DNA from: a virus
IMG/VR virus record: IMGVR_UViG_3300029787_000270
Coordinates: 1-26,898 of that record
Length of the DNA: 26,898 nucleotides
Direction: 5' to 3' (one strand)
Notes under the pieces: model-generated
Seen by the model: only the letters and a program-made list of their open reading frames with translations
What the model was told of the DNA's origin: nothing
Databases searched by the model: none
Position numbers and translations under genes: made by a program
Shown here: positions 14,694 through 26,880 of the stretch, in pieces
How the letters are laid out: every line of letters starts with the position of its first letter
How positions within the stretch are numbered: the stretch's first letter is position 1

Positions 14694-14735
14694 TTGTGCG
14701 TTGTAATTAAAAAGAGAGCATGGTAGGGGATTATT

Positions 14736-16160
14736 ATGACTATTAGTTTAAGCGATAACTCACCTAGAGTGAATTACACTGTGAATGAGGGTGCTACACA
14801 ATCCACCTTTACAGTGCCGTTTGAGTTTTTTGATGATGATGATCTAAATGTATATGTTGATGGCACAAAAAAAACATTAACTACTCACTATACAACATCA
14901 GATGATTCTGGTGATAGTCAAGCCCATACTTCTGGGACAACTGGTTTTGTGCAGATGACAACTGGCAATGCTGTGACAGGCGCATCTGGTGGATCGAGTG
15001 TAGTTATTACACGTGATATTGATCTTGATCGAACTACTGACTTTCCAACATCTGGCCCCTTTGATGTTGCAACTCTTAATACAGAACTTGATCGCATGAT
15101 TGCTATAGCGGCTGATATTGATGATGCCTCTAATCGTGCTTTGATTTTGTCTGACTTTGATACTACAGCATCACTTACATTGCCTGATGTATCTACAAGG
15201 GCAAGTAAACAACTTGGTTTTGATGGTAGTGGCAATCTTGTAGCAGAAGAGGGAAAAGTAAGTAGTGTATCTATATCAGCATCTGGCTTATCAGCTGGTG
15301 CAACACCTACAGCATCGGCAACATTTACAGGTAGTAGTGGTGCATTAGCATTAGCTTTAGGCATACCAGCTGGTGCAACTGGTGCTACTGGTGCAACTGG
15401 TGGCGGCGGAACATTAGATAATATTGTTGAAGATACAACTCCGCAGCTAGGTGGTGATTTGGATGTAAATGGTAAAGATATTGTGACCACATCTAATGCT
15501 GATATTGAATTGAACCCAAATGGTACTGGTAAAACAGTTTTAAAAGGCAACACTAATCCCGGCACTATTGTATTTAACTGTGAATCAAACAGCCACGGTC
15601 AAACAGTAAAGTCTCAACCACATTCTGCTAGCGTGACAAATACTCTTACACTGCCACCGGGCGGTGATGCTGAGATTGTTAGCACCGTTGCTACACAGCA
15701 GCTTACAAACAAAACAATACCTGATGATGAGAAGCTCTTTTTTGGTACAGGCAATGATGGCTTTATTGAATATGATGAAAATGGTGATGATCGTCTCAAG
15801 ATAGGTGGCACAAATGTTGAGTTTGAAAAATCTGTTATTGGCAAAACTGACACAGATACATCAAACACTGGCAGTGTTACTCTTGATTTTGCCACAAACC
15901 AAAATTTTGTTTTGACGCTGACAGGGGCAGTTACACTTGCAAATCCTACTACCGAGTTAGTTGGTCAAACTGGCTTTATTGTATTTATACAAGATGGCAC
16001 AGGTGGCAGGGCTGTATCACTTGACACGCAATACAAAACGGTTGGTGGTGTAAATACACTCACTTTGTCATCAGCGGCAAGTGCGATTGATATAGTTCCT
16101 TATGTTGTGTCAGCGGCTGATACTATTTTATTGGGTGCGTCACAGTTGGCGTTTAGTTAG
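14736..16160 (+). CDS. Tail fibre protein with T7 gp17-like N-terminal domain
   Basis: A 474-residue fibre. Residues about 1-150 match the T7 gp17 N-terminal attachment domain: the opening N-Y-T-V-N-E-G-A-T-Q-S-T-F-x-V-P-F-E-F, then L-N-V-Y-V-D-G, V-V-I-T-R-D-I, and L-N-T-E-L-D-R-M. This part docks the fibre to the adaptor/nozzle. A short collagen-like G-A-T-G-A-T-G-A-T-G stretch (about 211-222) is followed by fibre shaft repeats with P-Q-L-G-G-D-L-D-V-N-G and a beta-rich C-terminus. The fibre is short, and the next gene probably carries the receptor-binding tip. AGGGGA precedes the ATG. Confidence 0.88.
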   Translation: MTISLSDNSPRVNYTVNEGATQSTFTVPFEFFDDDDLNVYVDGTKKTLTTHYTTSDDSGDSQAHTSGTTGFVQMTTGNAVTGASGGSSVVITRDIDLDRTTDFPTSGPFDVATLNTELDRMIAIAADIDDASNRALILSDFDTTASLTLPDVSTRASKQLGFDGSGNLVAEEGKVSSVSISASGLSAGATPTASATFTGSSGALALALGIPAGATGATGATGGGGTLDNIVEDTTPQLGGDLDVNGKDIVTTSNADIELNPNGTGKTVLKGNTNPGTIVFNCESNSHGQTVKSQPHSASVTNTLTLPPGGDAEIVSTVATQQLTNKTIPDDEKLFFGTGNDGFIEYDENGDDRLKIGGTNVEFEKSVIGKTDTDTSNTGSVTLDFATNQNFVLTLTGAVTLANPTTELVGQTGFIVFIQDGTGGRAVSLDTQYKTVGGVNTLTLSSAASAIDIVPYVVSAADTILLGASQLAFS

Positions 16161-21247: not shown

Positions 21248-21643
21248 CTAAAATGGTATGTCATCAATAACTGGTGTGAGATTTGTATCTACTGTTTCAC
21301 GTGAAACATTATCTACAGCCTGTGGCGTGTATTTTTCTGATCGTCTCAACGACAAATACTTTTTACCATTCTTATCAGTCTCACGCCATCCAGCAATGCG
21401 ATGATTATTATCAATAGGGCCGGAATAGTGTGGCTGCTTTTTGGCATCATCAGCATCTTTGTTGCCATACATAACACCGACACGTTCGTATATGACAAGC
21501 ACATCACGTCCTTCTTTGTCAGTATCCTGTATGATAGCGATCTGTTTGTTGTCGCCATCTTTGTCTAGCTTGCCAGTAAGCAACAGGTTTTGTGATTCAA
21601 AGGGTGCGTGAGCCGCACCCCTGTTTGTATTATCATAGTCCAT
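21248..21643 (-). CDS. Possible ssDNA-binding/replication accessory protein with SSB-like tail
   Basis: A 131-residue acidic protein. The last residues are V-I-D-D-I-P-F, almost identical to the C-terminal tip of bacterial SSB, which recruits replication and repair partners. The middle contains G-W-R-E-T-D-K-N-G-K-K-Y-L-S-L, resembling the W-x-x-x-x-x-x-G-x-x-Y-L-S-V core of DUF736-type small phage/plasmid proteins. The start at 21643 is chosen because it has AAGGG at proper spacing and makes a TAATG junction with the Erf gene; an ATG at 21649 would be too close to the same site. Directly following exonuclease and annealing genes, a ssDNA-binding role is likely but unproven. Confidence 0.6.
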   Translation of the reverse strand: MDYDNTNRGAAHAPFESQNLLLTGKLDKDGDNKQIAIIQDTDKEGRDVLVIYERVGVMYGNKDADDAKKQPHYSGPIDNNHRIAGWRETDKNGKKYLSLRRSEKYTPQAVDNVSRETVDTNLTPVIDDIPF

Positions 21644-22110
21644 TACCATGTCCCTTCATTGTCTGGGTTGATGTGTTGTACTTTGCCTTTTGATGTTTTG
21701 CTTGCTTCATTGCCATCATCATCTTCTGATGGTAAGCCAAGTAGTGATTGCAAGCCGTAACGCTTGGCATATGTAATGCCACTGCCCATCTTCTGTGGGT
21801 CAGTTGGGTCTTTGGATCTGATGGGTGTGCGTGATGTACGTTTGTCACCAGATGGTGCATGTATCAGTACAGTACGCACAAACGTCATGCCAGTATCACC
21901 ATTGAACTCAAAGTCAATCTCTTGTGTAAAACAAAGACCAAACTGTGTAGCTTCATTAGCCGCACTAATAACAGCTTCGAGCGAAGCATAGGTGCTTTTG
22001 AAGTGTGGATTCTTTGAATCCTTGCTGGCTGATACTGCCAGCTTTTGAAACTCAAGCAATGCTTCATTTATATTTTTGGTTTGTGGTTCAGTTTCTTTCT
22101 TCGTTGCCAT
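21643..22110 (-). CDS. erf: Erf-type single-strand annealing recombination protein
   Basis: A 155-residue member of the ERF family (P22 Erf), which anneals complementary single strands during phage recombination and genome circularisation or concatemer repair. Diagnostic features are N-P-H-F-K-S-T-Y-A-S-L-E-A-V (about residues 34-47), the H-A-P-S-G segment, and G-S-G-I-T-Y-A-K-R-Y-G-L-Q-S-L-L-G-L (about 109-126) followed by D-D-D-G-N. P22 Erf is somewhat longer; this one holds the core domain and a short C-terminal tail. AAGGAGGC lies just upstream of ATG, inside the end of the exonuclease gene, one base away from it. The exonuclease neighbour is the expected partner. Confidence 0.9.
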   Translation of the reverse strand: MATKKETEPQTKNINEALLEFQKLAVSASKDSKNPHFKSTYASLEAVISAANEATQFGLCFTQEIDFEFNGDTGMTFVRTVLIHAPSGDKRTSRTPIRSKDPTDPQKMGSGITYAKRYGLQSLLGLPSEDDDGNEASKTSKGKVQHINPDNEGTW

Positions 22111-22111
22111 G

Positions 22112-22900
22112 TTATGCCTCCTTGTTTACAACGATGCGGCATGCGCCGCGCTTGTCACGCCGCACTGCCAACAGATCACAGAACACTTCGCGTTCGTCAT
22201 CCCTGATTAGTGAGCGTAATTCTTTCTTTGCAGATTCGTTAGCCTTGGCTGAATCTACAGTGTTCATATATTCATGTGCCATTGCGACAAAGTGATTGTC
22301 ACTACTGGCATCACGTGCTTTCAGATTATTGATAGCAACAGATGACCAATCAATCTTCCATGCATCAATGTCATAGCTTGGCTCTGTATCTGTAGTTACA
22401 CACTTCCAAAACTTCTGACAGCGTTTGATGACTGGCTTAAACCACTTCTCGCTGTAGTCTACAGAACAATAGCCAATGTCATTGCCAAAGATTACTGATA
22501 GGTATGCTTTGTCAATGTGAGATAGTGTCATATACAACTGTATCTGCGGCATGTAAGAATCAAGCATATCAGTCAATGACTTCATACTGCCTGTATGTTT
22601 GCACTCAAGTATGGTTTGCTTGCCATCATCTCCATGAGCAATGGCATCAACAGTACCTTTGAATGGTATGCCACTGATGACGCGCTGCAACTCAACTTGT
22701 GTCTGTTCGATGGTGTGTCCTGTATCTTTACAGAACCAATCAATGTTAAACTGTTCGGTGAATGATCCCAACTGTACACGAAAGATGTGGCTCAGATCTT
22801 CTGGCTCTTTGCGTCCAGTTTTGACCAGCCACAGATCGTGCCAGTTGCCTTGCATTATATTGTATAGATCAGATCCACCAATGAATCCTTGTCTGTTCAT
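22112..22900 (-). CDS. YqaJ/lambda-exonuclease-type recombination nuclease
   Basis: A 262-residue PD-(D/E)xK nuclease of the YqaJ viral recombinase type, expected to resect double-strand ends and load the adjacent Erf protein. Visible motifs are I-G-G-S-D (residues 7-11), Glu49 in G-S-F-T-E-Q, the catalytic G-T-V-D (Asp85), L-E-C-K (Glu99, Lys101), and M-P-Q-I-Q-L-Y-M (117-124). All core residues are present. AGGAGGC lies upstream at good spacing. The gene heads the exonuclease/Erf/SSB-like cassette and is preceded by a structured leader with its own promoter-like element. Confidence 0.88.
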   Translation of the reverse strand: MNRQGFIGGSDLYNIMQGNWHDLWLVKTGRKEPEDLSHIFRVQLGSFTEQFNIDWFCKDTGHTIEQTQVELQRVISGIPFKGTVDAIAHGDDGKQTILECKHTGSMKSLTDMLDSYMPQIQLYMTLSHIDKAYLSVIFGNDIGYCSVDYSEKWFKPVIKRCQKFWKCVTTDTEPSYDIDAWKIDWSSVAINNLKARDASSDNHFVAMAHEYMNTVDSAKANESAKKELRSLIRDDEREVFCDLLAVRRDKRGACRIVVNKEA

Positions 22901-22912
22901 ATTTGCCTCCTG

Positions 22913-22954
22913 TTATGAACTAGGGTGAGGTAGAATCTGTCTCCTATGAAACAT
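22913..22954 (-). CDS. Possible 13-residue leader peptide
   Basis: A minus-strand ORF starting at an ATG in the loop of the leader hairpin and encoding M-F-H-R-R-Q-I-L-P-H-P-S-S. Its Shine-Dalgarno GGAGGT lies 6 bases upstream within the stem. The stop is 12 bases before the exonuclease ATG. Ribosomes on this ORF would open the hairpin, a layout like translational attenuators. It could equally be a chance ORF in an untranslated leader. Confidence 0.3.
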   Translation of the reverse strand: MFHRRQILPHPSS

Positions 22955-23022
22955 GATTCTACCTCCCTACGCACTCTTGCTGTTATCACCGCTTCCCAGC
23001 GATCGGTCCACAAGAGTCAAAC

Positions 23023-23054
23023 TGCATTATTGCACACGATTGTAAGAAATACAA
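23023..23054 (-). promoter_or_regulatory. Promoter-like element with TGCA-N4-TGCA palindrome (exonuclease operon)
   Basis: On the minus strand, TTGTAT (23054-23049), a 17-base spacer, and AATAAT (23031-23026) preceded by TGC form an extended -10 promoter candidate. The -10 is inside the palindrome TGCATTATTGCA (23023-23034), which recurs at 26589-26600. Transcription would start near 23019, giving a 119-base leader before the exonuclease gene. The -35 match is weak. Confidence 0.45.
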
Positions 23055-23058
23055 ATAG

Positions 23059-23241
23059 TTATTGTTTGTTTTTTGCACTAAAAATTGTGTTGAGCATTTT
23101 TAGTCTTTCTAAGTCAGTGGGGAAACAATCTACTTTGACTTCAATTTCTAGCACTTGTTTGCTATTGACATTCTTCTTGATGGTTTTGATTTGCAATTTA
23201 ATTTTATCAATTTCTTCTTTTAGTTCAGCGATGGTAGTCAT
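23059..23241 (-). CDS. Small coiled-coil protein of unknown function
   Basis: A 60-residue protein with an N-terminal heptad-like Leu/Ile/Lys/Glu helix (residues 4-24) and a C-terminal half with I-E-V-K-V-D-C-F-P. Its ATG overlaps the TGA of the upstream gene as ATGA, supporting real, coupled translation. It is the last gene before the structured leader. No family is recognised. Confidence 0.55.
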   Translation of the reverse strand: MTTIAELKEEIDKIKLQIKTIKKNVNSKQVLEIEVKVDCFPTDLERLKMLNTIFSAKNKQ

Positions 23242-23561
23242 AATCTTCTCATCCTTAATGATGCAATGGTTTTGTTGACTATGCCTTGCACATCCATGGG
23301 CTGACCCATCTTTTCTTTTCTAGTTACAAAATACTTCAAGGAAAAGATTGGGTCTTTGTTTTGTGACAGTCGATAGTCGAGTAGTTGATTGGCATCTTGC
23401 TTGAATGATTCGAGCGTGTAGCCAAGATCAAGTAGCTGCTGTGCCAATGTCTCCTGCCGCATGTCCCATCTAAATGAGGATTGGACTTTGCGGCCTTGCC
23501 ATTTGTCATCAACTAACTGTCTGTAGATATAACAAAGCTGCCTAGCTTCCGGTGTTGTCAA
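23238..23561 (-). CDS. Unknown protein of the replication/recombination cluster
   Basis: A 107-residue basic, helical protein. Notable segments are C-Y-I-Y-R-Q-L-V-D-D-K-W-Q-G and W-D-M-R-Q-E-T-L-A-Q-Q-L-L, and the C-terminus is Arg-rich (S-L-R-M-R-R-L). It is coupled at both ends by ATGA overlaps, with the winged-helix gene upstream and the small coiled-coil gene downstream. Composition fits a nucleic-acid-binding protein, but I do not recognise a domain. Conserved company with a winged-helix gene suggests a shared replication or regulatory task. Confidence 0.6.
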   Translation of the reverse strand: MTTPEARQLCYIYRQLVDDKWQGRKVQSSFRWDMRQETLAQQLLDLGYTLESFKQDANQLLDYRLSQNKDPIFSLKYFVTRKEKMGQPMDVQGIVNKTIASLRMRRL

Positions 23562-23875
23562 AGAAGTCTGCCTTGTTTTTCAGCTGTTATCATAACACGT
23601 TGGCTTCGACCGCTATCACCTTTGCGCTTTTCACCTGTGTAATCGATTAATCCTTTGCGATAGAGGGCAGCGTATCTAGCTGTGACTGTAGAGTAGCGAT
23701 CAATACCATGAACCTGTGCCATGTATTCTATTACCTGATCTGATATGCATCCATTGCGAAATGTTGTGATTGCATTTAGTACAAGTAATTCTAGTTTGTT
23801 AGGCTCAATGCTTTCAGCAGCTTCAACACTTGTGCTTGGGGAATCTTTTCTGTATAGTTCGTATGATTCAGTCAT
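23558..23875 (-). CDS. Winged-helix DNA-binding protein
   Basis: A 105-residue protein. The N-terminal 25 residues are polar and probably disordered. Residues about 27-100 resemble a winged helix: L-L-V-L-N-A-I helix, I-S-D-Q-V-I-E-Y-M helix, the recognition helix around S-T-V-T-A-R-Y-A-A-L-Y-R-K-G-L-I (62-77), then a basic wing G-E-K-R-K-G-D-S-G-R-S-Q-R-V (81-94). Such proteins are common in phage early regions as transcription or replication regulators. AGGAGGC precedes ATG. It is the first gene after the bidirectional terminator, so it should have its own promoter or rely on read-through; I see no clear promoter in the short gap. Confidence 0.7.
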   Translation of the reverse strand: MTESYELYRKDSPSTSVEAAESIEPNKLELLVLNAITTFRNGCISDQVIEYMAQVHGIDRYSTVTARYAALYRKGLIDYTGEKRKGDSGRSQRVMITAEKQGRLL

Positions 23876-23905
23876 AATGCCTCCTATGACTTGGTTGTAA
23901 GAAGA

Positions 23906-23957
23906 AAAACTGTCGGCTGGATTTTACCTCCCAGTAATCCAGCCGACTATTTTTTCT
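23906..23957. terminator. Bidirectional intrinsic terminator
   Basis: A perfect 12-bp GC-rich stem (23912-23923 and 23936-23947) with a 12-base loop is followed on the plus strand by TATTTTTTC. On the minus strand it is followed by AGTTTTTCTTC, so either direction has a hairpin plus U-run. It overlaps the 3' end of the resolvase gene, whose last codons are inside the stem and loop. On the minus strand it would end the right-hand early transcript. On the plus strand it would stop late transcripts that run antisense beyond the endolysin. Confidence 0.85.
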
Positions 23958-24259
23958 GCCAAAGGATTACTCACTTCGATGCATATGAAATGCGGCCCGG
24001 TCTTTTGTTTCAGTAGATACAAATCCGATGGCTGATTCTTATGTGTTGTTGTGAGTAATCCGAATCCTCTGCCTGTTGCCTGATACTTTGATTCAGCAAT
24101 CAGAAATCCTGATTCAGTTTCGATCTTGATGTCACCTTGAAAGTCTCCACCCAGCTGTCCTGAGAGAGGTTGGCGATTCGCTTTGGCACCGTTCTTTTTG
24201 AACCAGTCGACCCACCACCTTTCATGGTAGCTTCCTTTATTGCGCTGAGATGTTCCCAT
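23924..24259 (-). CDS. Holliday junction resolvase-like nuclease (Hjc/PD-(D/E)xK type)
   Basis: A 111-residue protein resembling archaeal/phage Hjc-type resolvases, which cut four-way junctions. From ATG 24259 the pattern R-N-K-G-S-Y-H-E-R-W (Glu13), G-A-K-A-N-R-Q-P-L-S-G (24-34), G-D-I (Asp43), and A-E-S-K (Glu56, Lys58) gives a complete PD-(D/E)xK site in the family's order. A longer start at 24286 adds nine residues before the conserved core and is less likely. The 5' half overlaps the zinc-ribbon ORF in another frame by about 160 bases. The 3' end is part of the terminator hairpin. Confidence 0.8.
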   Translation of the reverse strand: MGTSQRNKGSYHERWWVDWFKKNGAKANRQPLSGQLGGDFQGDIKIETESGFLIAESKYQATGRGFGLLTTTHKNQPSDLYLLKQKTGPHFICIEVSNPLAEKIVGWITGR

Positions 24260-24402
24260 CCATGATACTCCATGCAATCCAGACACCAGACATTATCGTT
24301 GCCTGTGATAATATAATAATCAGTAACAGTTTTGCAGTGGTCACACTTAGCCGCAAACCCAGTCTTATTTTGTTTTGATTTCGATTTTCGCTTCGAGGGC
24401 AT
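24100..24402 (-). CDS. Small zinc-ribbon protein overlapping the resolvase gene
   Basis: A 100-residue ORF with a basic N-terminus (S-K-R-K-S-K-S-K-Q) and two Cys pairs, C-D-H-C (20, 23) and C-L-D-C (40, 43), typical of a zinc ribbon. After about residue 60 the sequence is the resolvase gene read in another frame, so only the first 55-60 residues look like a conserved protein. The start overlaps the XRE gene by 38 bases and has no strong Shine-Dalgarno. The overlap is either a genuine long out-of-frame overlap or reflects a -1 frameshift or sequencing error joining zinc ribbon and resolvase. Confidence 0.55.
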   Translation of the reverse strand: MPSKRKSKSKQNKTGFAAKCDHCKTVTDYYIITGNDNVWCLDCMEYHGWEHLSAIKEATMKGGGSTGSKRTVPKRIANLSQDSWVETFKVTSRSKLNQDF

Positions 24403-24595
24403 GAATCCATGTTACCAATAAGTGATGTGAAGGATATCGTTTTTCTCTTTCTAGTTTGTGGATAAAGGATGGCTCACATCCCATACGAAACGCAAGTTCT
24501 GCCTGTGATATTTTCTGCGCCTTGCGCAATGTCACAAGATCTTTAACAGCGTCAGTCCATATATCATTTACGGTTTTCACTGGATGTAATTGCAT
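24365..24595 (-). CDS. XRE/Cro-CI family transcriptional regulator
   Basis: A 76-residue protein with a classical HTH of the lambda Cro/CI type: V-T-L-R-K-A-Q-K-I-S-Q-A-E-L-A-F-R (about 21-37) and the recognition helix E-P-S-F-I-H-K-L-E-R-E (41-51). Length is that of a minimal DNA-binding repressor. AAGGAAAG lies upstream at about 9 bases. A 16-bp near-palindrome covers its start codon and could be an operator. It overlaps both neighbouring genes, the HTH gene upstream and the zinc-ribbon ORF downstream. Confidence 0.78.
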   Translation of the reverse strand: MQLHPVKTVNDIWTDAVKDLVTLRKAQKISQAELAFRMGCEPSFIHKLEREKRYPSHHLLVTWIHALEAKIEIKTK

Positions 24596-24749
24596 CCATC
24601 ACTTTCCTTGCTGTTGATAATCGTAAATCTTTACCAGCACGTGTTCTATAGTACGTGCTGGTAGGTACATTTGCTTTGCGGAAAGCGGCAAGGATAGATA
24701 GCTTTTTATCTGTTGCCGCTTGTATTAGTTGGTCTAGGTATGTAATCAT
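24564..24749 (-). CDS. Small HTH DNA-binding protein, probably autoregulated
   Basis: A 61-residue protein resembling short phage HTH proteins: L-S-I-L-A-A-F-R-K-A-N-V-P-T-S-T-Y-Y-R-T-R-A-G (18-39) forms helix-turn-helix, followed by L-S-T-A-R-K-V-M-D-A-I. ATG 24749 is preferred over 24767, because the extra six codons are exactly the palindrome and promoter. Promoter spacing then places the transcript start on the A of ATG, so the message is probably leaderless, in line with the absence of a Shine-Dalgarno. A 32-bp palindrome lies inside the coding sequence. A role as early-gene repressor is inferred. Confidence 0.6.
   Translation of the reverse strand: MITYLDQLIQAATDKKLSILAAFRKANVPTSTYYRTRAGKDLRLSTARKVMDAITSSENRK
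24582..24597. promoter_or_regulatory. Near-palindrome at the XRE start codon
   Basis: GGATGTAATTGCATCC is a 16-bp palindrome with a single mismatched pair. It spans the XRE start codon (24595-24593) and the end of the upstream HTH gene. It could be the XRE operator. No separate promoter is seen next to it, so function is uncertain. Confidence 0.35.
24632..24663. repeat. 32-bp palindrome inside the HTH gene
   Basis: Perfect 11-bp arms (24632-24642, TACCAGCACGT, and 24653-24663) flank a 10-base spacer. In protein terms it encodes the HTH turn and recognition region. As DNA it would suit a dimeric regulator site or recombination site; as RNA it is a stable hairpin in the HTH message. No U-run follows on either strand. 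Confidence 0.6.
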
Positions 24750-24785
24750 GCAGTAAGTATACTGCATTTATGCAATCAATGGCAA
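24748..24785 (-). promoter_or_regulatory. Promoter and operator of the small HTH gene
   Basis: On the minus strand TTGCCA (24785-24780), an 18-base spacer and TATACT (24761-24756) give five of six matches at each hexamer. The expected start lies at the A of ATG 24749. The spacer contains TGCA-TTTA-TGCA (24763-24774). A separate perfect inverted repeat (arms 24748-24755 and 24760-24767) covers the -10 and the start codon. Binding of a dimeric HTH protein here would block transcription. Confidence 0.6.
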
Positions 24786-25073
24786 CCCCAATTCGGTGCA
24801 TACTTGCCGCAGCTGGGTGAGCCAGTTGACATCACCAAGTTTTGTCTTGGCTTTTTGTTTGCCAGCCATAACTGTGGTGTGGTCTTTGTAGATAGCATCA
24901 CCTATCTGTACAAAACTCTTTGGCGTACATTCAGCGGCCATCAGATAGTACATGTAACGTGCGTTGTAGATTCGGGCATGCTTACGGTTCGATATGAGTT
25001 CGTGCATACCAACGCCAGTTACCTTGCTGACTGCCAGTTGTATCTCTCGTAGTTTAGGATAATCATTTATCAT
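24768..25073 (-). CDS. Stand-alone DnaA domain IV-like DNA-binding protein
   Basis: A 101-residue protein that matches only the C-terminal, DnaA-box-binding domain of the bacterial initiator DnaA. Signature segments are N-R-K-H-A-R-I-Y-N-A-R-Y-M-Y-Y-L-M-A-A-E (29-48) and I-G-D-A-I-Y-K-D-H-T-T-V-M-A-G (57-71), with the diagnostic D-H-T-T-V intact. ATPase domains are absent and no frame continues them. The start at 25073 has GGAGGC at good spacing; longer starts run into the upstream gene. It may bind phage or host DnaA boxes to direct or block replication, or act as a transcription factor. Confidence 0.8.
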   Translation of the reverse strand: MINDYPKLREIQLAVSKVTGVGMHELISNRKHARIYNARYMYYLMAAECTPKSFVQIGDAIYKDHTTVMAGKQKAKTKLGDVNWLTQLRQVCTELGLPLIA

Positions 25074-25233
25074 CAATGCCTCCAAGCGGTTCTGTGTTAT
25101 CCGCATATTCAAAATGATCTGTGACCATTTGTAAATTGTGATTACAAAGTTGCAGTATTTTATCATAGGTTACTTCGGGATCGCCGGGCCATGCATTTGC
25201 ATATTGTGCATTATACTCGGCAATCAACTCCAT
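25063..25233 (-). CDS. Small acidic protein of unknown function
   Basis: From ATG 25233 this is 56 residues; an ATG at 25269 would add 12. The shorter form is preferred because it makes a TAATG junction with the upstream gene, used repeatedly in this genome, though neither start has a good Shine-Dalgarno. Sequence features are W-P-G-D-P-E-V-T-Y-D and an acidic end (G-G-I-D-D-K). The 3' end overlaps the DnaA-like start and includes its Shine-Dalgarno. No family is recognised. Confidence 0.5.
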   Translation of the reverse strand: MELIAEYNAQYANAWPGDPEVTYDKILQLCNHNLQMVTDHFEYADNTEPLGGIDDK

Positions 25234-25427
25234 TACTTTTCTATTGATTTGCACAATTTTTTCTCCCATATATCTAATTCAAACAAGTCAAAGTTTTTGT
25301 CTGGTTGTGCGTTCCATAGTCTTTTGAATTCTTCAAAAGCAAACTGTTCAGCTTGCTCCTCATCATCTGCGATGATTTCAATAGTGCGACTACAACTTCC
25401 TGTTATATCTATTTCCCATAGAGCCAT
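25233..25427 (-). CDS. Small DpnD/PcfM-like protein
   Basis: A 64-residue acidic protein. The pattern of a short beta strand (W-E-I-D-I-T-G), another (T-I-E-I-I-A-D-D-E-E-Q-A-E-Q-F-A) and a helix resembles the small DpnD/PcfM-like domain common on phages and plasmids, whose role is unknown. The start overlaps the end of the preceding gene by 19 bases and has GAGG about 10 bases upstream. Its TAA overlaps the next ATG. The family suggestion is tentative. Confidence 0.5.
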   Translation of the reverse strand: MALWEIDITGSCSRTIEIIADDEEQAEQFAFEEFKRLWNAQPDKNFDLFELDIWEKKLCKSIEK

Positions 25428-25690
25428 TTGATTTCATCCTCGAAGTAAGTGGTTGTTAGTTTGCTCTCGGTCATAGATTCATTGTCCTGCATTTCAGCAT
25501 GCTGCTCGTCAAGATGACGAGCCTCCCATGCCTGAGTTGCACGATCCATGAACAGATCTTTCTTGAAGTTTGAATTTGTCTTGGCAAGGTGTTCAGCCGC
25601 TTCAGCAATATCACTTGGATGATGCATGAGTGGGCCGAAGAAGTCGGCGACAAACTCAAACTGTTGTTTAGTAAATTTAGGTGCAGTCAT
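25409..25690 (-). CDS. Unknown early protein
   Basis: A 93-residue acidic helical protein starting M-T-A-P-K-F-T-K-Q-Q-F-E-F-V-A-D-F-F. ATG 25690 forms TAATG with the DUF932 stop; the frame extends upstream to 25711, but that extension lies inside the DUF932 gene. H-L-D-E-Q-H near the middle is encoded by an 8-bp perfect hairpin (25504-25511 with 25515-25522, loop of 3). The protein is probably co-translated with DUF932. No domain is recognised. Confidence 0.6.
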   Translation of the reverse strand: MTAPKFTKQQFEFVADFFGPLMHHPSDIAEAAEHLAKTNSNFKKDLFMDRATQAWEARHLDEQHAEMQDNESMTESKLTTTYFEDEIKWLYGK

Positions 25691-26559
25691 TACGCAATCT
25701 CCCAGTCCCATTTGTTGATAGCTTTGGCAACAATACCTTCACGCAAACGCTGTGTGTTTGCTGGGGATTTGTTGTCCTCTGTGTGTGACGACCAGTAGGT
25801 CAAGGCATTGTACAACGCCCACTTGTTGTGCCCCAACGCCTGACTGTCATTACGCCAGCAGACCATCAGATCATCAAGTCGCTTTTCATTCCATTTGAAT
25901 GTGCTTGTGTTGTTGTTGATGCGGCACACTTTGTGCTTGAAGAAATCCTCTGCCATCTGATCACTGACATGGATACGTTGCCATGCCCAGTATTGCTCTT
26001 TGGTTTTGAAGAACCCATCAAGCGCAGCCTGTAGTTTGCTGGCGCTTGCTTTCACATTGATGTTGGCTGTGTGTTTTTGCCATGTCTTTGCGACAGAGTA
26101 TTGACTGACCATACCATTTAGGCAGATCAGCCGCAGCCCTTCAGCTGACTGCTGAAATGCCCATGATCCATCGTATGAGTTGAAGAATGTAAGTTGGAAC
26201 ATAACAGTATCGCCAACAGCTGGCTCGAACGTCAGATCATTGAATCTAATGACGCCGCGCATCTTCGCGCCGTTGTCAAAGACACTGACCTTGTGGTCAT
26301 AGTCATTCGATATACCTGATGCAGTTACAGCCTCGAATACTGAGTTGACTACATCATCGTGCTTGATTGCTTTGTATTTAGAACCATGCACACCAAGCAC
26401 TTGATTAGTGTCGGTGCGAACAATCGCACGTGCCATACTTTCTGGCACTGGTGTATCATCTGTATGTATTGATGACGCATACAGATTGCATGTGTCGATT
26501 GGGAATGACCATTCGTTTTCAGTTTGAATGGCGAAGTTTGTTGTAGATAAATCATTCAT
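25690..26559 (-). CDS. DUF932 family phage/plasmid protein
   Basis: A 289-residue member of the DUF932 phage/plasmid family, of unknown biochemical role. Characteristic segments are A-I-V-R-T-D-T-N-Q-V-L-G-V-H-G-S-K-Y-K-A-I-K-H (about 45-67), G-D-T-V-M-F-Q-L-T-F-F-N-S-Y-D-G-S (about 116-132), and R-L-I-C-L-N-G-M-V (about 143-151). Family members are often in early or recombination regions of phages, as here. AAAGGAGGC precedes ATG, and a promoter/operator-like element lies about 25 bases further upstream. It is the largest gene of the right-hand early cluster. Confidence 0.85.
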   Translation of the reverse strand: MNDLSTTNFAIQTENEWSFPIDTCNLYASSIHTDDTPVPESMARAIVRTDTNQVLGVHGSKYKAIKHDDVVNSVFEAVTASGISNDYDHKVSVFDNGAKMRGVIRFNDLTFEPAVGDTVMFQLTFFNSYDGSWAFQQSAEGLRLICLNGMVSQYSVAKTWQKHTANINVKASASKLQAALDGFFKTKEQYWAWQRIHVSDQMAEDFFKHKVCRINNNTSTFKWNEKRLDDLMVCWRNDSQALGHNKWALYNALTYWSSHTEDNKSPANTQRLREGIVAKAINKWDWEIA

Positions 26560-26581
26560 GATTGCCTCCTTTGTATCTACA

Positions 26582-26610
26582 ATAGTAGTGCATTATTGCA
26601 CCAAGGTAAA
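26582..26610 (-). promoter_or_regulatory. Promoter/operator-like element upstream of the DUF932 gene
   Basis: On the minus strand TTTACC (26610-26605), 17 bases and TACTAT (26587-26582) form a weak sigma70-like promoter (four of six each). The spacer is filled by the 14-bp inverted repeat GTGCATTATTGCAC (26588-26601), whose core TGCATTATTGCA is identical to that at 23023-23034. Alternatively TGC-AATAAT within it is an extended -10. Confidence 0.45.
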
Positions 26611-26722: not shown

Positions 26723-26880
26723 ATTTGCCTCCAAAGTAGTGGGGCTGGCATTGCTTGCAGAGCATGTGGTATAGCCAGCCCCGGTGTTGTTAACTCCAAA
26801 TCAAGAAAGTCGTTCCTGATTGTTTGTATGTCAGTCTGTTTCGTCACAGTCCTTTCTTTGCTAGTTGAACTTACTCACAT
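26723..26880 (-). promoter_or_regulatory. Leader region with a strong hairpin
   Basis: No convincing gene is present. The main structure is a perfect 9-bp GC-rich inverted repeat (26741-26749, GGGGCTGGC, and 26774-26782) with an inner TGCT/AGCA pairing. It ends nine bases before the Shine-Dalgarno of the membrane peptide gene. No U-run follows on either strand, so it is more likely a leader structure than a terminator. A GTG-initiated frame (26847 leftward) crosses the region and is judged unlikely. Confidence 0.45.

Follow-up and report, generated by a model that had tools for sequence, protein, structure and literature searches.

Three leftward genes in a fragment of an uncultured, probably marine phage start at promoter-like sites that share a short palindrome, TGCA-N4-TGCA. 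Do these copies represent one operator common to separate early promoters, and which protein would read it? The fragment (hereafter the window, i.e., the whole record of 26,898 bp) has a rightward head-tail block that adjoins a leftward early block. The portal of the head-tail block is 61% identical to the portal of Pelagibacter phage Hodr, and blastn against isolates returned no DNA relative of the window. The early block encodes a DUF932 protein, small proteins, a protein with a DnaA-like C-terminal domain (101 aa), a 61-aa helix-turn-helix protein (HTH61) and a 76-aa XRE protein (XRE76), and continues with a resolvase-like protein, a winged-helix protein (105 aa), a YqaJ exonuclease and Erf. 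About 8% of the window is noncoding under the ORF rule of this analysis, and no Rfam family was matched in the early region.

Palindromes at the early promoters

A preliminary description had placed TGCATTATTGCA at 23023-23034 and 26589-26600, and TGCATTTATGCA at 24763-24774. We confirmed all of these occurrences (Table 1), and all three elements are found where leftward genes begin, at promoter-like sites. The arrangement given there also agrees with our consensus fits, on which all promoter calls are based: at 24.76 and 26.59 kb the element lies in the spacer, one base before the -10, and at 23.02 kb, which is the weakest of the three promoter fits, the best-fitting -10 lies inside the element. 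Because the ATG of the HTH gene is at 24749, the element at 24763-24774 is upstream of that gene; it overlaps the stop codon of the DnaA-like ORF that precedes the gene. These are the only perfect TGCA-N4-TGCA matches in the record, and their number is not above chance (3 vs. 2.24 expected, with 33 of 100 shuffled sequences reaching 3), so the evidence was taken from position and conservation.

Table 1 Features of the early leftward region of the window
Feature	Position	Strand	Remarks
DUF932 protein	25690..26559	-	PF06067, E = 8e-20; first gene of early leftward unit
-35 TTTACC of DUF932 promoter	26605..26610	-	consensus fit, 17-nt spacer
Putative operator at DUF932 promoter (TGCAATAATGCA)	26589..26600	-	in -35/-10 spacer
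-10 TACTAT of DUF932 promoter	26582..26587	-	consensus fit; one-base gap from operator
-35 TTGCCA of HTH61 promoter	24780..24785	-	10/12 consensus matches, 18-nt spacer
Putative operator at HTH61 promoter (TGCATAAATGCA on coding strand)	24763..24774	-	in -35/-10 spacer
-10 TATACT of HTH61 promoter	24756..24761	-	ends 6 nt before ATG
HTH61, 61-aa Cro/XRE-type helix-turn-helix protein	24564..24749	-	proposed operator reader and autorepressor
XRE76, second small HTH protein (HTH_3)	24365..24595	-	overlaps end of HTH61
Likely -35 TTGTAT of yqaJ promoter	23049..23054	-	same arrangement in relatives G001 and G004
Putative operator upstream of yqaJ-erf recombination cassette (TGCAATAATGCA on coding strand)	23023..23034	-	overlaps -10
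Likely -10 AATAAT of yqaJ promoter	23026..23031	-	inside operator; 17-nt spacer; sequence shared with close relatives
YqaJ/RecE-like exonuclease	22112..22900	-	PF09588, E = 4e-9; phrog_434, E = 1e-30; first gene 3′ of operator
Erf-like ssDNA-annealing protein	21643..22110	-	PF04404, E = 2e-26; same operon as yqaJ

Enrichment and conservation among relatives

Relatives were collected by a DUF932 search (56 loci) and an HTH61 search (23 loci), and an HTH61 profile matched 386 viral contig stretches, of which 80 were kept; many of the compared contigs are related to one another. The concern, raised in the preliminary description, that the motif might be equally common in coding DNA was not borne out. 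In 10 divergent HTH61-bearing genomes, 35 of the 50 perfect sites are noncoding and 15 coding, although noncoding DNA makes up 15% of the total. The noncoding stretches hold 34 sites, against 3.06 ± 1.90 in Markov sequences (maximum 9 among 200). TGCA at every other spacing from 0 to 15 had at most 6 noncoding matches in these genomes, and TGCA ranked first of the 256 tetramers in an N4 palindrome, the second-ranking tetramer having 6 noncoding matches. Spacings of 5 and 11 gave genome-wide peaks (76 and 65 matches, respectively) that we rejected as mostly coding (36 vs. 6 noncoding and 29 vs. 4 noncoding). A control pattern, ACGTNNNNACGT, is nearly absent from viral records, and the sites are absent from 28.2 kb of isolate Hodr.

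Nor did a lack of conservation, the second objection named in that description, hold: relatives keep the motif at the same promoters while its central four bases, 90% of which are A/T, vary. The flanks extend the palindrome towards ACTGCA-N4-TGCAGT. At 25 sites the -10 begins 1–2 bp after the operator, with a -35/-10 spacing of 17–18 nt. The operator begins on the last base (T) of the -10 at another 16 sites; the direction of transcription was taken as the best fit throughout, and some of these 16 were fitted in the less likely direction.

The HTH61 and yqaJ promoters in divergent lineages

A perfect site occurs within 60 bp upstream of HTH61 in 68 of 110 unique upstream regions, compared with 0 of 110 in a control stretch from -150 to -90 and a mean of 0.05 after shuffling. 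It is present in 18 of 22 HTH61 clusters, mostly ending 13 bp before the ATG, and a site positioned as in the window is kept within one mismatch in 17 of the 22; some HTH61 promoters have only a variant with one or two mismatches. The site at the HTH61 start is constant in lineages that have diverged to about 35–45% identity. The best -10 ends 6 nt before the HTH61 ATG in 18 of 20 divergent clusters, and an SD-like tetramer precedes HTH61 in none of the 20 clusters (vs. 70 of 191 other genes). With the -10 so close to the ATG and no SD, transcription of HTH61 should start at the AUG, and we predict from these sequence features that its promoter is leaderless.

The position of the site is not fixed everywhere. 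At some promoters there is an additional site farther upstream (by 35 bp in one group). In L119, L281 and L295, three divergent lineages, the site is shifted towards the ATG by 11 bp, roughly a helical turn, and overlies the -10/start. A near-site in the window, TGCATGATTACA at 24741-24752, overlaps the start codon of HTH61, and other lineages do not retain it; we therefore rejected it as an operator. L119 (CAKZOI010000098.1) is an Opitutae MAG contig in which 2 bp separate a perfect operator from the HTH61 ATG and the early gene order is DUF932, HTH61, resolvase, YqaJ, DnaA-like. It was the sole bacterial-genome match, and since it shares the phage gene order, a prophage or mis-binning of a phage contig is the likely explanation.

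For yqaJ, we compared contigs with XRE76 and yqaJ on one piece, XRE76 thus being present in all. Of the 125 such contigs with HTH61, 97 have a perfect operator within 150 bp of yqaJ; of the 17 that lack HTH61, one does, and its site is in the coding end of the upstream gene. On the YqaJ tree one change accounts for the absence of HTH61, so that the association of gene and site reflects one independent event. Twenty-five of the 125 HTH61-bearing contigs have no yqaJ site within one mismatch.

HTH61 as a putative Cro-like repressor

The AlphaFold2 model of HTH61 has four helices (pLDDT 83.6), and its fold matches in the PDB are mostly XRE, Cro, HipB and C proteins (best Z 6.8). The scores are modest (Foldseek E > 0.1, Z < 7), and nearly all top rows have the XRE/Cro fold; we accordingly predict that HTH61 consists of a Cro/XRE domain alone. 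At E 0.1 it was assigned to no Pfam or PHROG family, and a 17-member HTH61 profile had HTH_26 (E = 0.067) and Xre-like-HTH (E = 0.12) as its best relevant matches. A search of PDB sequences with the profile gave nothing useful, tblastn of HTH61 against 50,697 phage records gave no credible match (best E 5), and our literature search found no description of a TGCA-N4-TGCA operator or of the HTH61 protein. Its segment TST(Y/F)YR is nearly invariant, as is the TGCA half-site.

We consider it likely, on the basis of sequence comparison, that TGCA-N4-TGCA is the operator of HTH61 and that this protein acts in the manner of Cro, repressing the early operons and its own gene. The noncoding enrichment and the conservation support one operator common to the DUF932 unit, the HTH gene and the recombination cassette, as suggested earlier. 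The accompanying suggestion that a small HTH protein reads it also gained support, in that only the 61-residue HTH, of the candidates, tracks the sites. A dimer of HTH61 would read one TGCA half-site per subunit through TST(Y/F)YR. By occupying the spacer or the -10/start, it would keep RNA polymerase off three promoters of early leftward genes, namely its own putatively leaderless one, that of DUF932, and that of yqaJ-erf. Upon infection the free promoters would fire and HTH61 would accumulate, whereupon its own gene and the early operons would be switched off in a Cro-like negative feedback. We infer repression rather than activation from operator position and fold.

Several known systems resemble this one. 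The Cro repressors of lambdoid and related phages (434, P22 and N15/PY54) are likewise single helical HTH domains of about 60–70 aa (434 Cro vs. the HTH61 model: TM 0.67 over 55 columns, Z 5.2) with short palindromic operators in promoters, and they would share early-gene shutoff with HTH61. As with repressors of the Cro/CI type, the palindromes overlap phage promoters, including HTH61's own. In PY54, the cI and cro promoters give rise to mRNAs without a leader, and the target of its Cro is a 16-bp palindrome (PMC4488713). Unlike in lambdoid Cro systems, no divergent cI/cro switch region was recognized in the window, where HTH61 and XRE76 are co-directional and overlapping rather than a divergent repressor pair, and one operator type is spread over separate, co-directional early promoters instead of shared divergent operators. 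Anti-CRISPR-associated (Aca) proteins are tiny HTH autorepressors of the promoter of their own operon, and Aca10 (7xi5) is in the fold list of HTH61 (Z 5.1); unlike in Aca systems, the putative operator of HTH61 recurs at separate promoters, those of the recombination genes and DUF932, and no acr gene was identified. C proteins and HipB-type antitoxins, small XRE-fold dimers that are also among the fold matches, have palindromic operators at their own promoter. HTH61 differs from them in that no partner restriction enzyme or toxin was recognized next to it and in that its regulon would consist of phage recombination and early genes.

For a large group of marine podovirus-like phages, uncultured and with unannotated control genes, the analysis predicts a regulator, its operator, and the regulon. 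Conservation of the recognition segment and the half-site is high enough for a single binding assay to be informative about all of the HTH61 family.

Alternative readers and modes of action

The sites might be read by XRE76, the winged-helix protein or the DnaA-like protein, HTH61 merely sharing their operon: the genes of all four candidates lie in one leftward region of the window, and XRE76, an HTH_3 protein, even overlaps HTH61. This is unlikely. XRE76 persists where HTH61 and the sites are both missing (the 17 contigs above have no operator at the yqaJ promoter, their single perfect match being coding) and is therefore not the reader on its own; with XRE76 in all contigs compared and a winged-helix homologue retained in the two HTH61-lacking phages examined, neither protein suffices. 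Moreover, many site-bearing lineages, L043-L045 and L050 among them, gave no tblastn match for the winged-helix or DnaA-like protein, and the most constant site is the one at HTH61's own promoter, which argues against other phage readers. A host regulator, by which phage early genes would respond to host state, fits promoters that look sigma-70-like, but it fits poorly with the absence of sites in HTH61-lacking relatives and in the 28.2 kb of Hodr, and with a constant HTH61-start site across lineages at about 35–45% identity; we regard it as very improbable.

With HTH61 as the reader, activation or dual regulation in the manner of restriction-modification C proteins is conceivable, given that the fold list includes C.Esp1396I and C.AhdI and that some promoters have a second, upstream site. 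Such upstream activator positions are, however, a minority, and most single sites are in the -35/-10 spacer or over the -10/start, where a Cro-type dimer would block polymerase, so we give this mode of action little credence. The raw count in the window would also accord with chance matches or a promoter-composition effect in AT-rich spacers, but an enrichment specific to spacing and sequence across divergent genomes, and a site that is conserved while its central four bases change, contradict this explanation and make it barely tenable.

Integrase-bearing relatives and late promoters

An integrase (PF00589) is present in relatives G018, G024, G025, G026, G028, G029, G039 and G043. The records of the window and its closest relatives are all incomplete, and no integrase was found in them. 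Site numbers are 7–9 in near-complete integrase-bearing records, with 15 in the 58.6-kb G043, and 1–5 in HTH61-bearing records without integrase. Some of the extra sites occupy spacers of late promoters in which another conserved box, TGTGCGTT, is present as well. Because operators occur in further promoters of integrase-bearing relatives, late ones included, HTH61 may act as, or support, the prophage repressor there; we hypothesize a wider silencing in which it would also cover late genes. A more general proposal, which we put forward as possible but doubtful, is that HTH61 represents an undescribed, widespread family of single-domain repressors with a fixed TGCA-N4-TGCA code, serving early shutoff in phages without integrase and, through added late operators, prophage repression in phages with one. 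If this were true, the regulon would have changed lifestyle by gaining operators and not by a new repressor. Since the operator code is constant while lifestyle genes differ, integrase-free and integrase-bearing phages provide a testable case of repressor regulon expansion.

The TGTGCGTT box occurs in the window at 14695-14702 (+), before a tail-fibre-like gene at 14736, and in relatives (e.g., G018 at 26859 and 31521, G026 at 30470, and G028 at 28480). Across 11 genomes it is noncoding in 31 cases and coding in 19, at about -35 to -40 of late-gene promoters; it is also present in G014, which lacks HTH61, and may therefore be a late-activator site. TGCA-N4-TGCA adjoins or just follows the integrase gene in G018 (468), G024 (19860), and G028 (778), where it is a candidate promoter operator or part of the attachment region. 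In several relatives, TGTGCGTTGACA-like promoters precede a pair of G runs, each about seven long (GGGGGGGAACACAAGGGGGGG), at G024 10927 (-), G026 19491 (-), G018 8686 (+), G028 9142 (+), and G010 30755 (+).

An insertion upstream of yqaJ

An insertion of ~100 nt (within window 22900-23022, minus strand), absent in close relatives, parts the 23.02-kb operator from the yqaJ ATG. It matched no Rfam family, and a scan for its exact pattern found no other viral contig. The insert folds far better than shuffled sequences (z = -5.8) and is possibly a structured 5′-UTR element. Other inserts occupy the same place in lineages L015/L024, L016, L032, and L038, and that of L015/L024 has compensating changes in a helix of 10–13 bp and a possible pseudoknot. 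The hairpin of the window would cover an alternative GGGAGG...ATG with a 13-codon ORF.
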